DNA of 64,000 nucleotides, from positions 1 to 64,000 of the forward strand of contig NZ_JAPFQL010000006.1 of the NCBI RefSeq assembly GCF_028446585.1. Direction: 5' to 3'. Below the pieces are notes generated by a model. The model worked only from the letters and a program-made list of their open reading frames with translations, had not been told where the DNA came from and did no database searches. Position numbers and translations under genes: made by a program. This document shows, in pieces, positions 15,498-63,939 of the stretch; within the stretch, counting starts at the first letter, position 1; each line of letters begins with the position of its first letter. The DNA is from Intrasporangium calvum (lineage in GTDB: Bacteria; Actinomycetota; Actinomycetes; Actinomycetales; Dermatophilaceae).

Positions 15498-18233
15498 ATG
15501 CCGGAGTCCCGAAGCGGGCGACCTGATACACGTGCGGCGGGGAAGCCTCGTGGACCCGCGCCCGAAGGTGCCGACGATCCGGCCTCATTGCTCCCCCTCG
15601 CAATATCCCGGCCGCAGTCGGCCCTCGCAAGCGCTATGCGGATCATCGACACCTCGGAGGATGCGTCCGCCCTCTCGTTCGCGCACCAGGCCGCCGCCAT
15701 CGTCCACCGCGACGCCGGGCGCAGTGACGAGTCCGTGACGCACGGGTTCGCCGCGCTTCGCCTCGCCCGGGAGGTCAGCGCGCTCCGGCAGGCAGACGTC
15801 ATGGCGACCCTTGGCGTCGTGCTCGCCTATGCCGGCCGCACCAGGGATGGCCTGCGCCAGTTCGACGCGGCCAAGGAGCTGACGCCCGCGGCCGACCTGC
15901 CCCGGCTGCTGCTGCGCCGCGCGCACGTCCTGGCCCTGGTCGGGCGGGACCGCGAGGCGCACGCTGACCTCACCCAGGCCATCACGGGCAGCCGCGCCGT
16001 CGAGGACCGGCTCTGGGAGGCACGCGCCCTGAACAACCGGGTCGTCGTCAGCATCTCGCTGGGCCTGGTCGACGACGCCGACGAGGACGCCCAGCTGGCG
16101 GAGCAGCTCTTCGAGTCCCTCGGTCAGGAGTTCGAGGCGACCGAGGTCCTGCACAACCGCGCAGCCACCGCGATGCTGCGTGGGGACCTGCCCCGAGCCC
16201 TGGAGCTGTTCGACCGGGCCGCCGACCGCTATGCCGCCCTCGGCAGGAGCGGTCCTGAGCTCGACCTCGACCGCGTCGAGGCCCTCCTCACGGCCGGGCT
16301 CTACGACGAGGCCGAGACGGTCGCCGTCGAGGGGCTCGCCCGCCCCGACCTGGCTCCGGTCAAGCGGGCCGAGCTGGTCCTGGCCCAGGCCCGGGCCGCC
16401 CTCGCCACCGGCAAGGCGGCGCTGGCCGGAGAGCGGGCCAACGCAGCAGCGGAGCTGTTCAGCGAGCAACTGCGGGACGCGTGGGTCGACCGGGCCAGGC
16501 TCCTGCGTCTGCGCGCCCAGCATGTGGCCACCCATCCGGAGCTCCAGGCCTGGATGCTCGAGCCCCGCGAGGCGCCGGAGCTGTCGGCCCGGTCCCGCAT
16601 CGCTCAGGAGAAGCGGCTCCTCCGGGAGGCGGACGACCTCGTGGCGTCGTTGCGCGCCTCCGGGTCCCTCGACCTGCCCATGGCCCTGCTCCTGCGCGGG
16701 CGGATCGCCCGCTACGCCGGGCTCCCCGAGGTGGCGCGCGACAGCCTGACCGCCGCTGCGGCCGCGCGCCGGTCGGGGCCACCCCTCTCCCGCGCCGCGG
16801 GGTGGCTCGCGGCGGCCCTGCTCGCCGACCAGTCCGGTGACCGTCGCGCGCTGTATGCCGCCTGCCGGCACGGCCTCGACGCGGTCGACGAACATCGGGC
16901 CATCCTCGGCGACCTCGAGCTGCGAGCGCTCGCGAGTGGCCACGGCATCGAGTTCGCCCGCTTGGCAGTCGCTTCCGCTGTGCGCTCCGGTCGCGCCCGT
17001 GACCTCTGGTGGTGGGCCGAGCGGTGGCGGGCCGCCGCCCTCAACGGCACGATCACGAGACCTGACGACCCCGCCCTGCGCCGCGACGTGGCCGCCCTGC
17101 GCGACGTGACCCGGCGACTCGACACCCAGACGGATGGGGATCCGGCTCTCCTTGCCACCTGGCAGGCAGAACGCAGGCGGCTCGAGTCGTCGATCCGGCA
17201 CGCCCACCACCGGATGCGCTCAGACCACGACAGCGACTTCGGCGTCCCGGCGGGCCTCGATCTCGACGCCGTGCTGGCCGAGCTGGGTGACGGCGTCCTG
17301 CTCACCTTCGTCAACGACGGTGGCAGCCTGCACCTCGTCATGGTGTGTCGGCGGCGGGTCCGCCACCTCGAGGTCGGCAGCGCTGCCAGCGCCGAGAAGG
17401 AGGCCGACTTCGCCCGGTTCGCGCTGCGCCGTGCGGCGTCCGGCCGGCTCGTCGACCTGGATGCAGCGGGGGCCCGTCTCGAGGCGGCGCTGCTGGGCCC
17501 CCACGAATCGACGCTCCGCCAGCTCGTCGGCGACGACGACCGGCCCGTCATCGTCGTGCCACCAGCCGGGCTCCTCACCGCCCCGTGGGGCCTGCTGCCA
17601 CTGTTCGCGCGCTCCCCACTGTCGGTCAGCCCCTCCGTCACCCAGTGGCTCAAGGCCCGACGCTCCGGCCGGGGCCGGGACGCCGGGCACGTCTCCCTCA
17701 TCACCGGTCCCGACCTGAGCACGCGCGAGTCCGAAGTCACGAACCTCAGCCCCATCCATCACGGTGCACTCGTCCTGCCAGCGGACAAGGCGACGGTTGC
17801 GGCCGCCCTCGAGATCCTGGACGGGGCCGGGCTGGCCCACATCGCCGCGCACGGCACCTTCCGAGCCGAGGCGCCGCTCTTCTCGTCACTCCAGCTGGCG
17901 GACGGCCCGCTCACGGTGCACGACCTCGAGGAGCTGCAGCAGCCGCCCCGGTCGATCATCCTCTCCGCCTGCGACTCGGGCGGGGCCGCTCCGATCGGCC
18001 CGCACGAGGCACTGGGTCTCGTGTCAGCCCTCCTGGGCATGGGCACGGCCGACGTCCTGGCCAGCGTCGTGCCGGTCAACGACCAGGCCACGCTCAGCGT
18101 CATGGGTCACGTGCATGGTGTCGCCGGCCGGGGTGGGACCCTCACCGAGGGCTGGCTCGCAGCGCGGAAGGCCGCCGCGGGCGACGTCCTGCACGCCGCG
18201 ACCGCCGCATCGTTCACGGCGTGGGGTGCCTGA
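15498..18233 (+). CDS. TPR-CHAT protein, caspase-like protease
   Basis: About 911 residues. Residues roughly 50-520 are helical tetratricopeptide-type repeats (for example ATEVLHNRAATAMLRGDLPRA). The C-terminal CHAT domain (about 610-911) carries His in HIAAHGTF (near 783) and Cys in LSACDSGG (near 822), the caspase-like dyad, both intact. The GTG at 15432 and ATG at 15486 have no usable ribosome site. The ATG at 15498 (or GTG 15495) lies 9-12 bases after AAGG. The gene ends 6 bases from the convergent small protein gene. CHAT proteases act in prokaryotic conflict and cell-death systems; the trigger and target here are unknown. Confidence 0.88.
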   Translation: MPESRSGRPDTRAAGKPRGPAPEGADDPASLLPLAISRPQSALASAMRIIDTSEDASALSFAHQAAAIVHRDAGRSDESVTHGFAALRLAREVSALRQADVMATLGVVLAYAGRTRDGLRQFDAAKELTPAADLPRLLLRRAHVLALVGRDREAHADLTQAITGSRAVEDRLWEARALNNRVVVSISLGLVDDADEDAQLAEQLFESLGQEFEATEVLHNRAATAMLRGDLPRALELFDRAADRYAALGRSGPELDLDRVEALLTAGLYDEAETVAVEGLARPDLAPVKRAELVLAQARAALATGKAALAGERANAAAELFSEQLRDAWVDRARLLRLRAQHVATHPELQAWMLEPREAPELSARSRIAQEKRLLREADDLVASLRASGSLDLPMALLLRGRIARYAGLPEVARDSLTAAAAARRSGPPLSRAAGWLAAALLADQSGDRRALYAACRHGLDAVDEHRAILGDLELRALASGHGIEFARLAVASAVRSGRARDLWWWAERWRAAALNGTITRPDDPALRRDVAALRDVTRRLDTQTDGDPALLATWQAERRRLESSIRHAHHRMRSDHDSDFGVPAGLDLDAVLAELGDGVLLTFVNDGGSLHLVMVCRRRVRHLEVGSAASAEKEADFARFALRRAASGRLVDLDAAGARLEAALLGPHESTLRQLVGDDDRPVIVVPPAGLLTAPWGLLPLFARSPLSVSPSVTQWLKARRSGRGRDAGHVSLITGPDLSTRESEVTNLSPIHHGALVLPADKATVAAALEILDGAGLAHIAAHGTFRAEAPLFSSLQLADGPLTVHDLEELQQPPRSIILSACDSGGAAPIGPHEALGLVSALLGMGTADVLASVVPVNDQATLSVMGHVHGVAGRGGTLTEGWLAARKAAAGDVLHAATAASFTAWGA

Positions 18234-43971: not shown

Positions 43972-44523
43972 GAGGTTCTCCGTTGCTTGCGGGCGGAACC
44001 GGCACAGGCCGACCCGTCCCGAGTCCAATCGAGTGGTTCAACTGCGGATTGCAGCTATGCGGCGACCGCAATCGGCAAGCCCGCGGAGAGCCATCGGATC
44101 CGAGGAACCGAGGGGCCGCGCCACGGGCATGCGAAAGAGGTCGCGGACACGCTCGGTCAACGATACGGGAGCGTGCGAAGAGGGGTCAAACCAGCGCTGC
44201 GGCCCCTGGCTCGGACCACAAACCTTCCCATCGTCGACGCGCCCAGCACGAATGCAACTCGACACGCCGCGCGAATCCTCGATTTCTGCCATTCAGGTTG
44301 TCAGTGCCATCCCGAGTTGTTAGGTTTTCGGTTCTCACGGTGACTGCTCTCCTGTCCCCTCCGCCACCATGCACAGGGTGTGGACAACCGTGTGGAAAAC
44401 GTCGACAGGCAGGTCGGCGAGGTGACAGGGTGGACGTCACCGGCCCCGTTCACGGCGGGTCGGAGCGCAGTGGGGCACAGGGACAGCCAACGACAGGCAG
44501 AGCAGTCAGGGACGGGTGAAGCG
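43972..44523. other. rpmH-dnaA intergenic region
   Basis: 552 bases without a gene. It holds the promoters of divergent rpmH and dnaA, and one DnaA box TGTGGACAA at 44379-44387, probably for dnaA autoregulation. An open frame from 44380 could extend DnaA by 48 residues, but it has no family support. Confidence 0.7.
44298..44326 (+). promoter_or_regulatory. Probable dnaA promoter
   Basis: TTGTCA at 44298 and TAGGTT at 44321, 17 bases apart, a good housekeeping-sigma match; a DnaA box lies 53 bases downstream. Confidence 0.55.
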
Positions 44524-46296
44524 GTGACGGGCGGAGACGTCGACTACGACCAGGTCTGGCAACGGACCCTCGCCACCCTCGGCTCGTCGGGTGTGACCGC
44601 GCAGGAGCGGGCCTTCGTCAGGCTGTGCCGTCTCGTCGGCGTCCTCGACCAGACCGCACTGGTCAAGGTGCCGAACACCTACACGAAGGACTTCCTCGAG
44701 ACCCGGCTCAAGGCTCAGGTCGTCGCGACGCTCTCCGAGCTGCTCGGTCATCCCGTTCACCTGGCGGTGAGCGTCGACGAGACCCTCGACCAGGACGACT
44801 TCCGGCTCATCACCGACGAGCCCACCGGGCAGCCGGCACTGGCCGAGACCGGTCGGGTCGCGCACGCGTTCGGGACCGTGGCCACCGACCCGCACTTCGC
44901 CGCGACGGCTCCGGTCACCCCCAGCAGCGATCCGCTGAAGGATCTCGAGGCGAGCGCCCCCGACCTGTTGGCGGCCGACTTCGATGCAGCTCTGCCCACC
45001 CCCTTCACGGTCCCCCTCGCGCCCAGCGGGTCAGCTTTCGACGGGCTGCACGGCGAGCACCCACACATCAACCAGGTGCCGCGGCAGCTCCATCCCGACC
45101 AGCTCCGGCCGAGCCTCCACCCGGACCAGCTCCGTCCCGACCAGCTCAGGTTCGACCAGCTGCGCGCCGACCAGCAGGAGAACGGCCACGTCCATCCGCT
45201 GCCGGCGCGCGGAGGCGAGAGCGGACCCCTCCGCCAGCAGCGCGCGGAGCCGACCCAGGCCAGCGACACCCGGCTCAACCCGAAGTACACGTTCGACACT
45301 TTCGTCATCGGGGCGAGCAACCGCTTCGCCCATGCTGCTGCGGTGGCCGTTGCCGAAGCGCCGGCCAAGGCCTACAACCCGCTCTTCGTCTACGGGGAGT
45401 CCGGGCTGGGCAAGACGCACCTGCTCCACGCGATCGGCCACTACGCCCGCACCATGTTCCCCAACGTCCGAGTGCGGTACGTGAACTCCGAGGAGTTCAC
45501 CAACGACTTCATCAACAGCATCCGCGATGACAAGGCGAGCGCGTTCCAGAGCCGCTACCGCAGCGTCGACGTCCTGCTCATCGACGACATCCAGTTCCTC
45601 CAGGGCAAGCTCCAGACCCAGGAGGAGTTCTTCCACACGTTCAACACGTTGCACAACGCCAACAAGCAGATCGTGATCACCTCCGACCTGCCCCCCAAGG
45701 AGCTCTCCGGCTTCGAGGACCGGATGCGCACCAGGTTCGAGTCGGGCCTGCTCACCGACGTGCAGCCCCCCGACCTCGAGACCCGCATCGCGATCCTGCG
45801 CAAGAAGGCCATCCAGGAGCGCATGTCGGTGCCGGACGACGTCCTCGAATACATCGCGAGCAACTTCAGCACCAACATCCGCGAGCTCGAGGGCGCCCTC
45901 ATCCGGGTGACCGCCTTCAGCAACCTCAACCGCCAGGCCGTGGACCTGCCGCTCGCCGAGATCGTGCTCAAGGACGTCCTGCCCAACGAGACGCCCAACC
46001 AGGTCACGGCCGCGACGATCATGGCGGTCACCTCCGCGTACTACGCGGTGACCATCGAGGACCTCTGTGGCTCGTCACGGTCACGGCAGCTCGTCACGGC
46101 GCGGCAGATCGCCATGTATCTGTGTCGTGAGATGACTGACCTGTCCCTGCCGAAGATCGGCCAGCACTTCGGGGGCCGGGACCACACGACGGTGATGCAC
46201 GCCGATCGCAAGATCCGCGAGCTGATGAGCGAGCGTCGGGCGATCTACAACCAGGTCACCGAGCTGACCAACCGGATCCGCCAGCAGTCCAGCTGA
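44524..46296 (+). CDS. dnaA: Chromosomal replication initiator DnaA
   Basis: 590 residues. Domain I (1-85), a long variable linker, AAA+ domain III (Walker [14 protein letters not shown], Walker [10 protein letters not shown]) and domain IV with the box-reading motif [15 protein letters not shown]. The linker holds a run of imperfect repeats of HPDQLRP at about residues 189-218. GTG start at 44524 chosen because it gives the usual N-terminus ([10 protein letters not shown]). It opens oriC, whose boxes follow. Confidence 0.96.
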
Positions 46297-46326: not shown

Positions 46327-46350
46327 GCCACCGACCTCGCGGTCGGTGGC
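46327..46350 (+). terminator. dnaA terminator
   Basis: Stem GCCACCGACC / GGTCGGTGGC with loop TCGC, 30 bases after the dnaA stop. Confidence 0.7.
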
Positions 46351-46354
46351 TGCG

Positions 46355-47098
46355 CTCTGCCTGCCGCGTCCGCCGGTCCGGGGACCGCGTGCTCCTCGCG
46401 GCCGACCATTTCTGGTGGCTCGCACCTGTTGCGAAGCACACCTCTCGGGGTACGGGTCCGCCGATCCCGCGGGGCCGGCACGCCGCACGGGGATCGAGCG
46501 CTGGCCGCTGTCCCCACCGGTGGACAACCGTTGTGCACCGTATCCACAGGGTCTTCCACAGCTGTGTGCACAGCGAGACCGGTCCGTGACCAACCGTGGC
46601 CCGCGCTCAACCTCCCCCATTGTCCACTGCCTGTGGATAACTTTGTGGAGGGCACCGTCCACATCTCCCACAGGCGACCTGTGGACAACCGCTCGAAATC
46701 GCACACGTCGCACGAGTCATCCACAAGGGCCTGTGGACAGCTGTGGACAAAGTGCCTGATGTTGCGGAAAACAACGGGTGTTGCTGTGGTCGGCCTGTGG
46801 ACACCCATTTCGCCGTCCACACCCCAGCCTTGTGATCGCCCGCGCCACCCACAGAAGCTCCACAACGGCTTCATGCACCGCGACGTGCGCCGATGCGAGT
46901 TGTCCACACTTTCCACACCACCTACGACTATGACGAGACTCCAGATCATGGCGATCCGCCCCGCGTACACCTGTGGAACGGACCCGGATGATCGAGCCGG
47001 GCGGGGCCGGGCCCCGAGCGTCGGCGCTGTGGTGCAGAATCGCTGGAACGGGCTAGTGTCTGAGGCCCACACGTCCATCGTCATGAAGTGAGTCCGTC
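46355..47098. other. oriC: Replication origin oriC
   Basis: Gene-free dnaA-dnaN gap dense in DnaA boxes. Clear ones: 46632-46640 TGTGGATAA, 46680-46688 and 46742-46750 TGTGGACAA, 46900-46908 TTGTCCACA. Near matches: 46519-46527, 46541-46549, 46620-46628, 46717-46725, 46732-46740, 46796-46804, 46813-46821. Boxes occur in both orientations. The least GC-rich stretch (about 46756-46786, GTTGCGGAAAACAACGGG) could be part of the unwinding element. The dnaN promoter must be near the right end. Confidence 0.93.
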
Positions 47099-61156: not shown

Positions 61157-61232
61157 GGGGCCATGGCGCAATTGGTAGCGCACCTGCTTTGCAAGCAGGG
61201 GGTTAGGGGTTCGAGTCCCCTTGGCTCCACCA
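61157..61232 (+). tRNA. tRNA-Ala (TGC), target of element insertion
   Basis: 76 bases with CCA. Acceptor GGGGCCA pairs with TGGCTCC; anticodon TGC at 61190-61192. Its 3' half from 61190 onward is duplicated at 63869-63914, so the element restored a full tRNA on integration. Confidence 0.98.
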
Positions 61233-61235
61233 CAG
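61190..61235 (+). repeat. attL: Element left attachment site
   Basis: 46 bases from the anticodon to 3 bases past CCA, identical to 63869-63914. Confidence 0.92.
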
Positions 61236-61239
61236 TTCA

Positions 61240-61270
61240 GAGCCCCTTTCCGGTCACCGGGGAGGGGCTC
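61240..61270 (+). terminator. Element-borne tRNA-Ala terminator
   Basis: GAGCCCC ... GGGGCTC with inner TCCGG/CCGG pairing, followed by TT. It replaces the chromosomal terminator at 63918. Confidence 0.7.
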
Positions 61271-61350
61271 TTCCGTGCCCCGACTGCTGAAAAGTACTGC
61301 AGTCGCCACGCGCGGCGAGTTTGACCTTGGAGGACGTCCGGGCCTTGCCT

Positions 61351-61450
61351 ACTTGCTGGCGCTGACTCGAGGAAGTGTCGAGCCTCGTCCACAGTCCACA
61401 CGACGGGCTTCTTCGCCTGTGGCACGGGCACCCGGAGCACGGCTGCAGCA
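61351..61450 (-). pseudogene. Tyrosine-recombinase (integrase) fragment
   Basis: The minus strand encodes KKPVVWTVDEARHFLESA (core 61360-61428). It resembles the stretch that begins the catalytic domain of actinophage-type integrases (linker VPxxxKPVxWxVDEAxxFLE). The reading loses similarity on both sides. No catalytic Arg or Tyr remains. It lies beside attL where the integrase gene is expected. Confidence 0.6.
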
Positions 61451-61489
61451 GGAGTTCGACCGCGCCGGCCGTCGACACACTCAGGAACG

Positions 61490-62302
61490 CTAGGAGCTGA
61501 GGGCCTCAAGGAGGTCTTGCGCCAGCAGCACCACACTCTCGGACACGGCAGTTGGATCACCGACCAACTCCTCCGCAGCGCCGGCCATGAGGGACCCGCG
61601 GGCACCTGCTCCTTGCGCGAAGAGATCTCGGAGTTGATCGAGTGCCTCGCGTGTCACCTCCGCGCTGACGCCCTCGCTCAGCAGCTGACTGATCGCTTCG
61701 ACGAATACCCGCGTCTCGACTGCCCGCAGCAGACGGTAAACGTCGTGGGCGTCCTTGTTGTCCTGCCTCGACGGAGTCTCGAGCCGGTCGTGGATCTTGT
61801 GCAGCTTGGCCACTAGCAGCGCTGCCGGTCCGGCCACGGAGACCTCGAACTCCCGAGGGCCGCCTGCACTGTCGAGCGCCCGGATGACCATCTTGGAGTT
61901 GTCGATCAACGCCGCCTCGATGCCTCGCGCCCTGCGCATCGACTTCGAGTCGTGCGGCGGCACGTGAACTCCGCGACGTCCGGCTCCGGCCACGGCGTCG
62001 GGCACCATCAGGTCGACCGGCACTCCGCGTGGGGAGATCCACGACCCAATCGCGCTCGGCCGCGGATCTGGCGAGAAGCCCGCCGCGCTCATCGCCTCCT
62101 CGACCAGCGGGTCGGAGCTCAGCAGTTTGGGATCCACCGCGACGTCGCCATCGGTGGTGAACTCGGCGAGGGCAATCTCCGTCGCTCCGGTGTGCAGGTA
62201 GACGGCTTGGGCGCCGACGATGACAAGCGCGTCGAGGTGCAACGCCAACGCTTCCAGCGCGTCGAGCAGGCCCATCCGCGCCATGGTCATTTCGTCAGTC
62301 AC
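61490..62302 (-). CDS. AbiEii/AbiGii-type nucleotidyltransferase toxin
   Basis: 270 residues. The nucleotidyltransferase fold starts with LVIVGAQAVYLHTG and the metal motif TTDGDVAVD; a helical C-terminal half follows. AbiEii-type toxins transfer nucleotides to RNA (tRNA for related MenT enzymes) and arrest growth. The GTG at 62302 overlaps the partner gene by 8 bases; an ATG at 62290 is also possible. The pair and its place on a tRNA-borne element fit phage defence. Confidence 0.8.
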   Translation of the reverse strand: MTDEMTMARMGLLDALEALALHLDALVIVGAQAVYLHTGATEIALAEFTTDGDVAVDPKLLSSDPLVEEAMSAAGFSPDPRPSAIGSWISPRGVPVDLMVPDAVAGAGRRGVHVPPHDSKSMRRARGIEAALIDNSKMVIRALDSAGGPREFEVSVAGPAALLVAKLHKIHDRLETPSRQDNKDAHDVYRLLRAVETRVFVEAISQLLSEGVSAEVTREALDQLRDLFAQGAGARGSLMAGAAEELVGDPTAVSESVVLLAQDLLEALSS

Positions 62303-63377
62303 GACGCCACCGCTGCTCGTTGGCCTTCATCCACTCGATCAGGTACTCGCCCTCGGCAGGCTCGCGGCCAGGCCCATTCAGCAGGTCGGCCGCAACCTGC
62401 GCGGGTGCCGCCACCGGGTAGCCGCCTTCGGCAGGTGCGGTGTTCTGGAACGGCACGTCACCGACCGTCCTGGGTTCCAAGAGGATCACGTTCGGAGCAG
62501 CCGCGTTGGGCCGCAGGCCCCACTGCTCCGAGGCCTCCTGGATCGACGACACGTAGACGTAGGCAGCCTTGGCCGGCGCGTAGGTCGCCCATTGCTTCGC
62601 AGCGATCGATCCCGTCACGGCCGCGGGGAAGGTCGACTCTTTGGCCACCTTGCTCAGGAAAGCGTCCACTCCCCGCGGCTCGATGAACGCCATCACGCGG
62701 GTCGTTGTCTGAAAGGCGGCGTCCGAGCTCCACGCGCGCAGCAACCGCTCCCAGTCGGTCACCCGGTAGCGCTTGTCCTCCTTGACGACGAGGCCCTCGC
62801 GTTCCAGGTACTCCAACACTCGGTACGCCCCGCCCGTGGAGGCGCCCGACGCAGCAATGAGCTCACGGACCGTCCAGTCGCGGTCGTAGTCCAACAGCGC
62901 ACGAGCAACACGCGCCGCGGGCTCACCTTTGAGTGTTCCCCGCGGGCGGCCCTTGCGCCACGGATCTCGGTCCTCCCCCCGGTCAGAGATGTAGATGACC
63001 GGAGAGTCGACGCCAATGCGTATGTTGCCGGTGGCGTCTACGTAGGAGAGCCCGTCCGCTGCCAGAGCCTCACGCACGGATGTCGACAGATAGCGAGCTG
63101 CCACGACAGGGACATCTCCGGGATTCGACGCGATGAGGCGAACCTGGTCAGAGATACGCGCGACGTCACGGCGCTCGACGACCTGCCTGACCTCCAAGAG
63201 GAGTCTCGCGGCCCTACCATCGGGAGCTTCAAGCTGAATCCACAGATCGGGCCGCAGCGAACCCTGCTGTGGCTCAACGGCGTGCGTGACCTTCCAGGTC
63301 TCGGGCAGGCGGTCACGCACGAGCTTGACGATACGACGCTCCACCTCGGAAATGGTCAGTACCTCGTTGGTCGCCAT
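62295..63377 (-). CDS. AbiEi-type antitoxin/regulator with nuclease-like N-terminal domain
   Basis: 360 residues. The N-terminal 110 residues (RPDLWIQLE, then LLLEVRQVV) resemble a restriction-endonuclease-like fold. A winged helix follows at about 130-205 (WTVRELIAASGASTGGAYRVLE). The C-terminal domain contains NVILLEPRTVGDVPF. Such proteins repress their operon and neutralise the AbiEii toxin, the gene for which overlaps. The ATG at 63377 follows GGAG by 10 bases; 63410 is an alternative. Confidence 0.78.
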   Translation of the reverse strand: MATNEVLTISEVERRIVKLVRDRLPETWKVTHAVEPQQGSLRPDLWIQLEAPDGRAARLLLEVRQVVERRDVARISDQVRLIASNPGDVPVVAARYLSTSVREALAADGLSYVDATGNIRIGVDSPVIYISDRGEDRDPWRKGRPRGTLKGEPAARVARALLDYDRDWTVRELIAASGASTGGAYRVLEYLEREGLVVKEDKRYRVTDWERLLRAWSSDAAFQTTTRVMAFIEPRGVDAFLSKVAKESTFPAAVTGSIAAKQWATYAPAKAAYVYVSSIQEASEQWGLRPNAAAPNVILLEPRTVGDVPFQNTAPAEGGYPVAAPAQVAADLLNGPGREPAEGEYLIEWMKANEQRWRRD

Positions 63378-63440
63378 GAGTGCACATCTCCGTTCAGGTA
63401 TCCATGCCATTCCGCTGGCGGCGAAGATTGAGACTTATCT

Positions 63441-63460
63441 GAACACTGTAGCGCTTGTTC
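63441..63460. promoter_or_regulatory. Possible operator of the AbiE-type operon
   Basis: Inverted repeat GAACA-N10-TGTTC, 64-83 bases before the antitoxin start, where self-repression would act. Confidence 0.4.
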
Positions 63461-63868
63461 GGGAAAACAGCCGCTTCCGCCGGCAGCGGATCACCCCACT
63501 TAACCGAACGTCAACCCCGACTCTCAGAGGTAGGCAGCGACGTGCAGTGGCACGGCGGGTTCCGCAACCGGCGATGGGACGCCAGCTATCTGCGCCGCCT
63601 AGATTCCGTCCGTGACGTCCTCACCAGCGGCGGACGGACCCTGACCCAAGGGGTGCCGGCGTCCCCCAGTCAACTAGGTTGACATCCCCTTCGACCGCCA
63701 GTGACGCCTCGGCGCCGAGACACGGAGCCCCCTGCACGGCATACGCCCCCGCCTCGATGCGTCGCCGCCGCAGCGAGACCCAGCCTGCGCAGCACAGTTG
63801 CTGTCAGGTGACGGCTGACGCCGCGCCGCACGCTCAGACGACCCCGCGCGATGATCTCGCGCCGAGTC
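63461..63868. other. Gene-free right part of the element
   Basis: 408 bases with only short open frames lacking ribosome sites or family likeness. No excisionase or repeat structure seen. Confidence 0.5.
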
Positions 63869-63914
63869 TGCAAGCAGGGGGTTAGGGGTTCGAGTCCCCT
63901 TGGCTCCACCACAG
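63869..63914 (+). repeat. attR: Element right attachment site
   Basis: Exact 46-base copy of 61190-61235 (3' half of tRNA-Ala with CCA). Confidence 0.92.
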
Positions 63915-63917
63915 CCG

Positions 63918-63939
63918 GACCCGCCCGCCCAGGCGGGTC
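63918..63939 (+). terminator. Original tRNA-Ala terminator
   Basis: GACCCGCC ... GGCGGGTC followed by TT, directly beyond attR; it was the tRNA terminator before insertion. Confidence 0.6.

Follow-up and report, generated by a model that had tools for sequence, protein, structure and literature searches.

The tRNA-Ala(TGC) gene of an Intrasporangium calvum genome (contig NZ_JAPFQL010000006.1, of which the first 64,000 nucleotides, hereafter the window, were analyzed) is followed by a partial second copy of itself, raising the question of what was inserted at this site and why two genes have persisted there. An initial annotation had described a 46-bp duplication of the tRNA 3' half around 2.7 kb, with an abortive-infection pair as cargo. 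The longest exact repeat found is indeed this 46-bp sequence, TGCAAGCAGGGGGTTAGGGGTTCGAGTCCCCTTGGCTCCACCACAG (Table 1), and the probability of such a repeat arising by chance between any pair of places in 64 kb is of the order of 1e-19. Its left copy starts at the anticodon and runs to 3 nt beyond the tRNA end. The bracketed span comprises two minus-strand genes and a scrap of an integrase gene, the only homology- or family-supported ORFs inside the repeats being 61490-62302 (-) and 62295-63410 (-), the latter with a conserved start at 63377 according to alignment with relatives. The described position next to the origin region also holds, since the locus is preceded by genes which, by inspection, we take to be dnaA (44380-46296), dnaN, recF, gyrB and gyrA; what are presumably a DUF3566-like gene and a tRNA-Ile gene likewise lie upstream.

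Table 1. Features of the tRNA-Ala locus, in window coordinates
Feature	Positions	Strand	Basis
Rebuilt tRNA-Ala(TGC)	61157..61232	+	ARAGORN
attL core, 46 bp	61190..61235	+	Exact repeat; same core flanks the congener's AICE
Terminator-like hairpin within element	61239..61271	+	Folding, -29 kcal/mol, z -4.1; kept in AICE left ends
AGTACTGCAGT, probable integrase arm site	61293..61303	+	Common to AICE left ends of several genera; function inferred
Integrase relic, codons 184-212	61359..61439	-	tblastn 22/29, E 4e-10; blastn 65/81
Cassette (operators, antitoxin, toxin)	61440..63509	-	DNA homology limits against same cassette in other genera
Toxin, probable nucleotidyltransferase, 270 aa	61490..62302	-	PF12281 25.9 bits, AbiEii 18.4 bits; MenT fold neighbours; invariant motifs
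Antitoxin, 360 aa	62295..63377	-	Homologous to AbiEi_2 proteins, residues 37-342; start by alignment
Predicted operator unit 2, 53-bp concentric palindrome	63392..63444	-	Motif analysis
Predicted operator unit 1, 53-bp concentric palindrome	63457..63509	-	Motif analysis
Right segment, 359 bp	63510..63868	.	Without convincing match; without AGTACTGCAGT within 3 mismatches
attR core, 46 bp	63869..63914	+	Exact repeat
Hairpin outside attR, possible old tRNA terminator	63918..63939	+	Folding, -20 kcal/mol, z -1.2; weak

The origin of the span was traced by comparison with the only congener examined (G001), which lacks the toxin-antitoxin pair and carries a 29.4-kb element in the same tRNA gene. 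This element has a 48-bp att pair (cores at approximately 16977-17022 and 46342-46389) and encodes a 401-aa tyrosine integrase (PF00589), a pSAM2-type RepSA protein (PF20199, 303 bits) and an FtsK-domain protein (PF01580). It thus possesses all that characterizes pSAM2-type AICEs, namely an integrase, a RepSA, RepAM or Prim-Pol protein, an FtsK-type Tra protein and att sites (PMC3218068), and is accordingly assigned to them. Native DNA further to the right is common to both genomes at 69-82% identity. The left end of the island is identical to that of the congener AICE at 93 of 104 positions (89%) through AGTACTGCAGT, after which approximately 575 bp of the integrase gene are absent, codons 184-212 are kept and the cassette follows; the integrase relic of the initial annotation is therefore real, though very short, with 22 of its 29 residues identical to the congener integrase. 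At the right end just 10 bp or so past the core match the congener AICE (55/56 with the core). DNA homologous to the cassettes of other genera extends at most from 61440 to 63509, a stretch of 2.07 kb, so that the island resolves into an AICE left end, the cassette, 359 bp and attR. Searches with these 359 bp returned only scattered matches of 26-47 bp, with E values of 5e-5 or weaker, which were judged to be composition-driven. The AICE-like left end, the integrase codons that follow it and the presence of both att cores indicate that the island would be a deletion derivative of a larger AICE, a CIME-like remnant in which the att cores are kept and the recombination and conjugation genes are lost. 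The earlier reading of a compact tRNA-Ala island was thus correct as to repeats, relic and terminator, but is to be amended to a deletion remnant of a larger element.

AICE left ends at tRNA-Ala in several genera contain the core, mostly the hairpin and usually a AGTACTGC-like site, and this supports the proposal that the element brought its own terminator for the rebuilt tRNA. The old terminator had been placed outside attR; a hairpin is present there, but it is only a weak candidate for that terminator. Of 184 family genomes, 23 encode integrases of the island's clade. Apart from the congener integrase itself, the four closest (74-82% identity) are located beside the same tRNA-Ile/tRNA-Ala pair, as are some of the more distant; several others have no tRNA within the short flanking stretch examined. 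With the same clade at tRNA-Ala in several genera, its description as a common attachment site is borne out. No empty tRNA-Ala site was found among 14 sites in other genera, whose emptiness is unprovable because their right flanks are not orthologous, and, apart from the congener, only G085 among them showed a second att copy.

Further arrangements were observed at this tRNA. G085 (L111:1122-5508) carries a comparable 4.3-kb island, in which a gene resembling aquaporins and one resembling alcohol dehydrogenases accompany a broken integrase, 81% identical to the integrase of the congener AICE across 88 residues. Pairs homologous to that of the window lie directly 3' of the same tRNA-Ala in two other genera (G166, L077 7336-9849; G014, L079 8109-10261), with the antitoxin adjoining the tRNA; their orientation is opposite to that in the window, which suggests independent arrivals. 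In L077 three 109-nt repeats with tRNA-end fragments separate the tRNA from the pair. Just outside attR of the congener (G001:C1 ~46390-46460; L105 390-460) a second left-end relic, consisting of a hairpin and GAAGCACTGCAGT, is a sign of repeated insertion or accretion at tRNA-Ala. A gene judged HipA-like by inspection, with no obvious HipB neighbour, also lies just outside the congener AICE (L105:1051-2340; G001:C1:47051-48340). Past the window, contig positions 64356-70315 (C120; L062:4356-10315) contain an IS110-family transposase gene, after which come genes for a Fis-type regulator and for amidohydrolase-like, DUF59-like and alcohol dehydrogenase-like proteins. These bring to mind a propane oxidation cluster, and the congener does not share this stretch.

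AbiE-type systems comprise two kinds of linked pair, COG5340-COG2253 and COG4861-COG4849 (Dy et al. 2014, PMC3985639), and Rv0837c, the antitoxin of one of four Mycobacterium tuberculosis systems, belongs to COG4861 (Beck et al. 2020, PMC7319586). The window genes form a two-gene operon with the antitoxin upstream of the nucleotidyltransferase, the antitoxin stop overlapping the toxin start by 8 nt, and the same order is seen in relatives. None of the curated AbiE models reached its cut-off anywhere in the window, the antitoxin scoring 14.2/21 bits with AbiEi_2 and the toxin 25.9/26.3 bits with PF12281 and 18.4/22.5 bits with AbiEii. Alignment of the antitoxin with PF09952 proteins of the same phylum extended over residues 37-342 (27% identity, E 1e-21), and the genes after these homologues encode nucleotidyltransferases homologous to the toxin (E 2.5e-9 and 5e-9). 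Because the Pfam cut-offs are missed, the pair is termed AbiE-like, a relationship that rests on pairwise homology. For comparison we take AbiEi_2 to be COG4861, the nucleotidyltransferases to be COG4849 and Rv0837c to be MenA2. On these homologies the pair appears to be a divergent COG4861-COG4849-type pair rather than a classical COG5340-COG2253 AbiE, and the name AbiEi/AbiEii-type given to it initially is accurate in the broad sense but not in the classical one. The toxin of an AbiE-type system arrests growth and the antitoxin relieves this without complex formation; a toxin-antitoxin function of the present pair is well supported by inference.

The antitoxin, whose start was placed at 63377 rather than 63410, is laid out as a PD-(D/E)XK-like domain, a winged helix and a C-terminal domain. 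Its N-terminal part (pLDDT ~80) matched EndoMS/NucS, PaqCI and AF1548, PD-(D/E)XK-fold proteins that are known or likely nucleases, and its middle part matched winged helices; as no Foldseek match reached E 0.001, this assignment constitutes moderate evidence. Residues of nuclease type are incompletely kept, with EVR in the window protein as against E-x-K in most close relatives, so that binding would be a likelier role for the N-terminal domain than cutting. The idea of a new three-domain architecture was abandoned because proteins of the ordinary AbiEi_2 type align over the same layout. For the toxin the predicted model was of low confidence (pLDDT 53). Foldseek alone gave no clear fold; a second aligner ranked MenT toxins first, the best neighbours being MenT3 (Z 11.1, rmsd 4.3, 224 residues), followed by MenT1, JHP933 and MenT4. 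Residues G30, A31, T49, D51, D53, K166, K169, R173, K183, D184 and D187 are invariant in 24 toxins, as are the motifs TxDxD, K..K...R and KDxxD. When compared with the four AbiE nucleotidyltransferase motifs hG[G/S]-DhD-KLxAaxxR-(K/R)DxxD (PMC3985639), motif IV is matched by KDAHD, motif III reads KLHKIHDR, and motifs I (GA) and II (DGD) are atypical, although the G30-A31 and D51/D53 concerned do not vary among the 24 relatives. The toxin looks like a nucleotidyltransferase of the MenT/AbiEii fold. By motif spacing its T49-x-D51 would correspond to T39-x-D41 of MenT1, in which T39 is the phosphorylated threonine and D41 a magnesium ligand (PMC11375011). Both genes are under purifying selection, with dN/dS values against five relatives of 0.11-0.22 (toxin) and 0.13-0.21 (antitoxin). 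Sequence searches of solved structures with the pair proteins returned nothing significant.

The most interesting new detail of the locus is the operator. Upstream of the antitoxin gene four half-sites make up two predicted 53-bp units, compared with a mean of 0.03 chance matches in the window, and none of 100 shuffles reached four. The consensus of 24 units from 15 loci is GTTCGGGnAA-N9-TCCGCnGnCnGCGGA-N9-TTnCCCGAAC, in which the N9 spacers are almost without information, and the units are conserved across genera. Half-sites numbered 45 against a mean of 4.9 in shuffles, an enrichment that is partly circular because the motif was read off the same sequences; not circular are the fixed offset of 43, seen in 15 of 26 loci, distant relatives included, and the absence of the pattern from the rest of its own genome. 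A sigma-70 promoter scan detected nothing, and a non-exhaustive literature search found no published report of the operator sequence. In the Rv2827c promoter, the region from -1 to -131 contains two inverted-repeat pairs (PMC7319586), a layout comparable to that of the two units. On this pattern the units very likely represent the autoregulatory operator of the pair, and their conservation, fixed offset, absence elsewhere and Rv2827c-like layout make autorepression by the antitoxin likely. We tentatively suggest that in COG4861-type antitoxins the winged helix may read one palindrome and the catalytically degenerate PD-(D/E)XK-like domain the other, which, if true, would mean that an entire branch of AbiE-like systems uses a new operator code.

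The initial annotation described the cargo as fixed at its site; the pair is absent from the congener, and its distribution is patchy (18/186 family genomes; 28/396 in an order-wide sample). At five loci the toxin gene is broken and the antitoxin gene open, and the reverse was never seen, these events being few and some frameshifts possibly sequencing errors. An integrase lies within the examined flanks at seven loci, and four pairs, that of the window included, adjoin a tRNA gene. Antitoxin homologues are carried by 26 plasmids, and none was found in phages and IMG/VR. Relatives with the pair but no att repeats, which the initial annotation had regarded as evidence against an island, do exist; their presence shows only that other elements carry the cassette as well. 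In Arsenicicoccus cauae (L073:4951-13150) a close relative of the pair is flanked by a different tyrosine integrase on one side and by a TrwC-type relaxase on the other. Two Nocardioides loci (L104:10000-10102; L103:10000-10331) hold toxin scraps only, one of them matching across 104 bp at 92% DNA identity, which points to cassette loss.

These data are best accommodated by a decayed, CIME-like AICE derivative with an autoregulated COG4861-COG4849 toxin-antitoxin operon that first stabilised its element, a reading we consider quite probable. The tRNA-Ala(TGC) gene beside gyrA would have received an AICE, whose tyrosine integrase presumably recombined the 46-bp tRNA 3' half such that the tRNA was rebuilt at attL and supplied with a new terminator. 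Deletions would then have removed replication and transfer functions and nearly all of the integrase, sparing the att cores, the left end and the 2.07-kb cassette. Basal transcription would yield antitoxin first, which most likely binds the two 53-bp operators and represses the operon while keeping the nucleotidyltransferase inactive, perhaps by promoting phosphorylation of the invariant T49, the putative equivalent of MenT1 T39 and MenT3 S78. Were antitoxin lost or in short supply, the enzyme would halt translation, probably through nucleotide transfer to tRNA or a comparable substrate, as its fold and invariant TxDxD, K and KDxxD residues suggest. The pair would most likely have persisted because antitoxin loss is costly. 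What the pair offered at first was most likely stabilisation of its former carrier, given that the S. suis AbiE system stabilises its ICE, its AbiEi acting at oriT (PMC11062541). Phage defence by the pair, as implied by the initial annotation, is possible, though the odds are against it.

Other explanations of the locus concern either its mobility and descent or its genes. CIMEs move by accretion with an ICE, and the island might still be mobile but non-autonomous, excised in trans by an AICE integrase at the same tRNA or carried along by tandem-AICE accretion. Both cores are perfect, the left arm site is present, integrases of the clade are common in the family and the second left-end relic of the congener points to accretion; nevertheless, no close relative of the integrase was found elsewhere in its own genome and no arm site AGTACTGCAGT near attR within 3 mismatches, so that the island is probably immobile and such mobility unlikely. 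Descent from a prophage or other integrative element, AICE-like only in integrase and left end, would fit a link to AICEs consisting of that left end and 29 integrase codons and a right segment without an assignable match. It is rather improbable in view of the left end, which is 89% identical to that of an AICE occupying this site in the congener, and of the lack of antitoxin homologues in phages or IMG/VR. That the repeat is due to chance or was duplicated locally, with no part played by site-specific recombination, is hardly credible: nothing beyond the repeat itself favours it, and the shared core, left end and integrase relic, with an intact element at the same site of the congener, contradict such a source.

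It is likewise unlikely that the pair no longer functions as a toxin-antitoxin system, the nucleotidyltransferase having another role or only the antitoxin mattering, as a regulator. This would accord with the atypical motifs I and II, with relatives that keep only an open antitoxin gene, and with the lack of detectable activity of MenT2, partner of a COG4861 antitoxin (PMC11375011; PMC7319586), but the catalytic residues are invariant, the toxin dN/dS is low and the operators are intact. The stabilising toxin-antitoxin operon on an AICE remnant remains our preferred reading. Under it a toxin-antitoxin cargo can outlast the conjugative element that carried it, at a tRNA attachment site close to the origin. 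The COG4861 branch, that of the MenAT2 antitoxin, is poorly characterized, and the locus offers a minimal natural example with intact genes; these, together with a precisely defined, conserved operator and clear AICE descent, bring autoregulation, the function of the nuclease-like domain and the toxin chemistry within direct experimental reach.

The locus adds a new and divergent member to kinds already known, the COG4861-COG4849-type pair and the AICE-derived CIME, and the island itself is a well-defined but fairly ordinary example. It resembles pSAM2-type AICEs (PMC3218068) in its tRNA 3'-end att site, left end and integrase relic, and differs from them in having lost replication, transfer and integrase functions. 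With CIMEs, which are decayed ICE derivatives (PMC7563491), it shares its size, both att cores and a content of cargo only, without recombination or transfer genes; unlike them it is AICE-derived, has an unrecognisable right arm and lacks a tandem helper. The pair is like other COG4861-COG4849 pairs in gene order, nucleotidyltransferase motifs III and IV and near-full-length AbiEi_2 homology of the antitoxin. It differs from them in falling below Pfam cut-offs, in motifs I (GA) and II (DGD), and in conserved 53-bp operators, of which the non-exhaustive search found no report for such pairs. Classical AbiE and MenAT3/MenAT4 have in common with it the nucleotidyltransferase fold of the toxin and an upstream winged-helix antitoxin, and the two pairs of inverted repeats in the MenA4 promoter parallel its double operator; in contrast, the window antitoxin carries a further domain, PD-(D/E)XK-like, at its N terminus, and 53-bp concentric palindromes take the place of 23-bp repeats.
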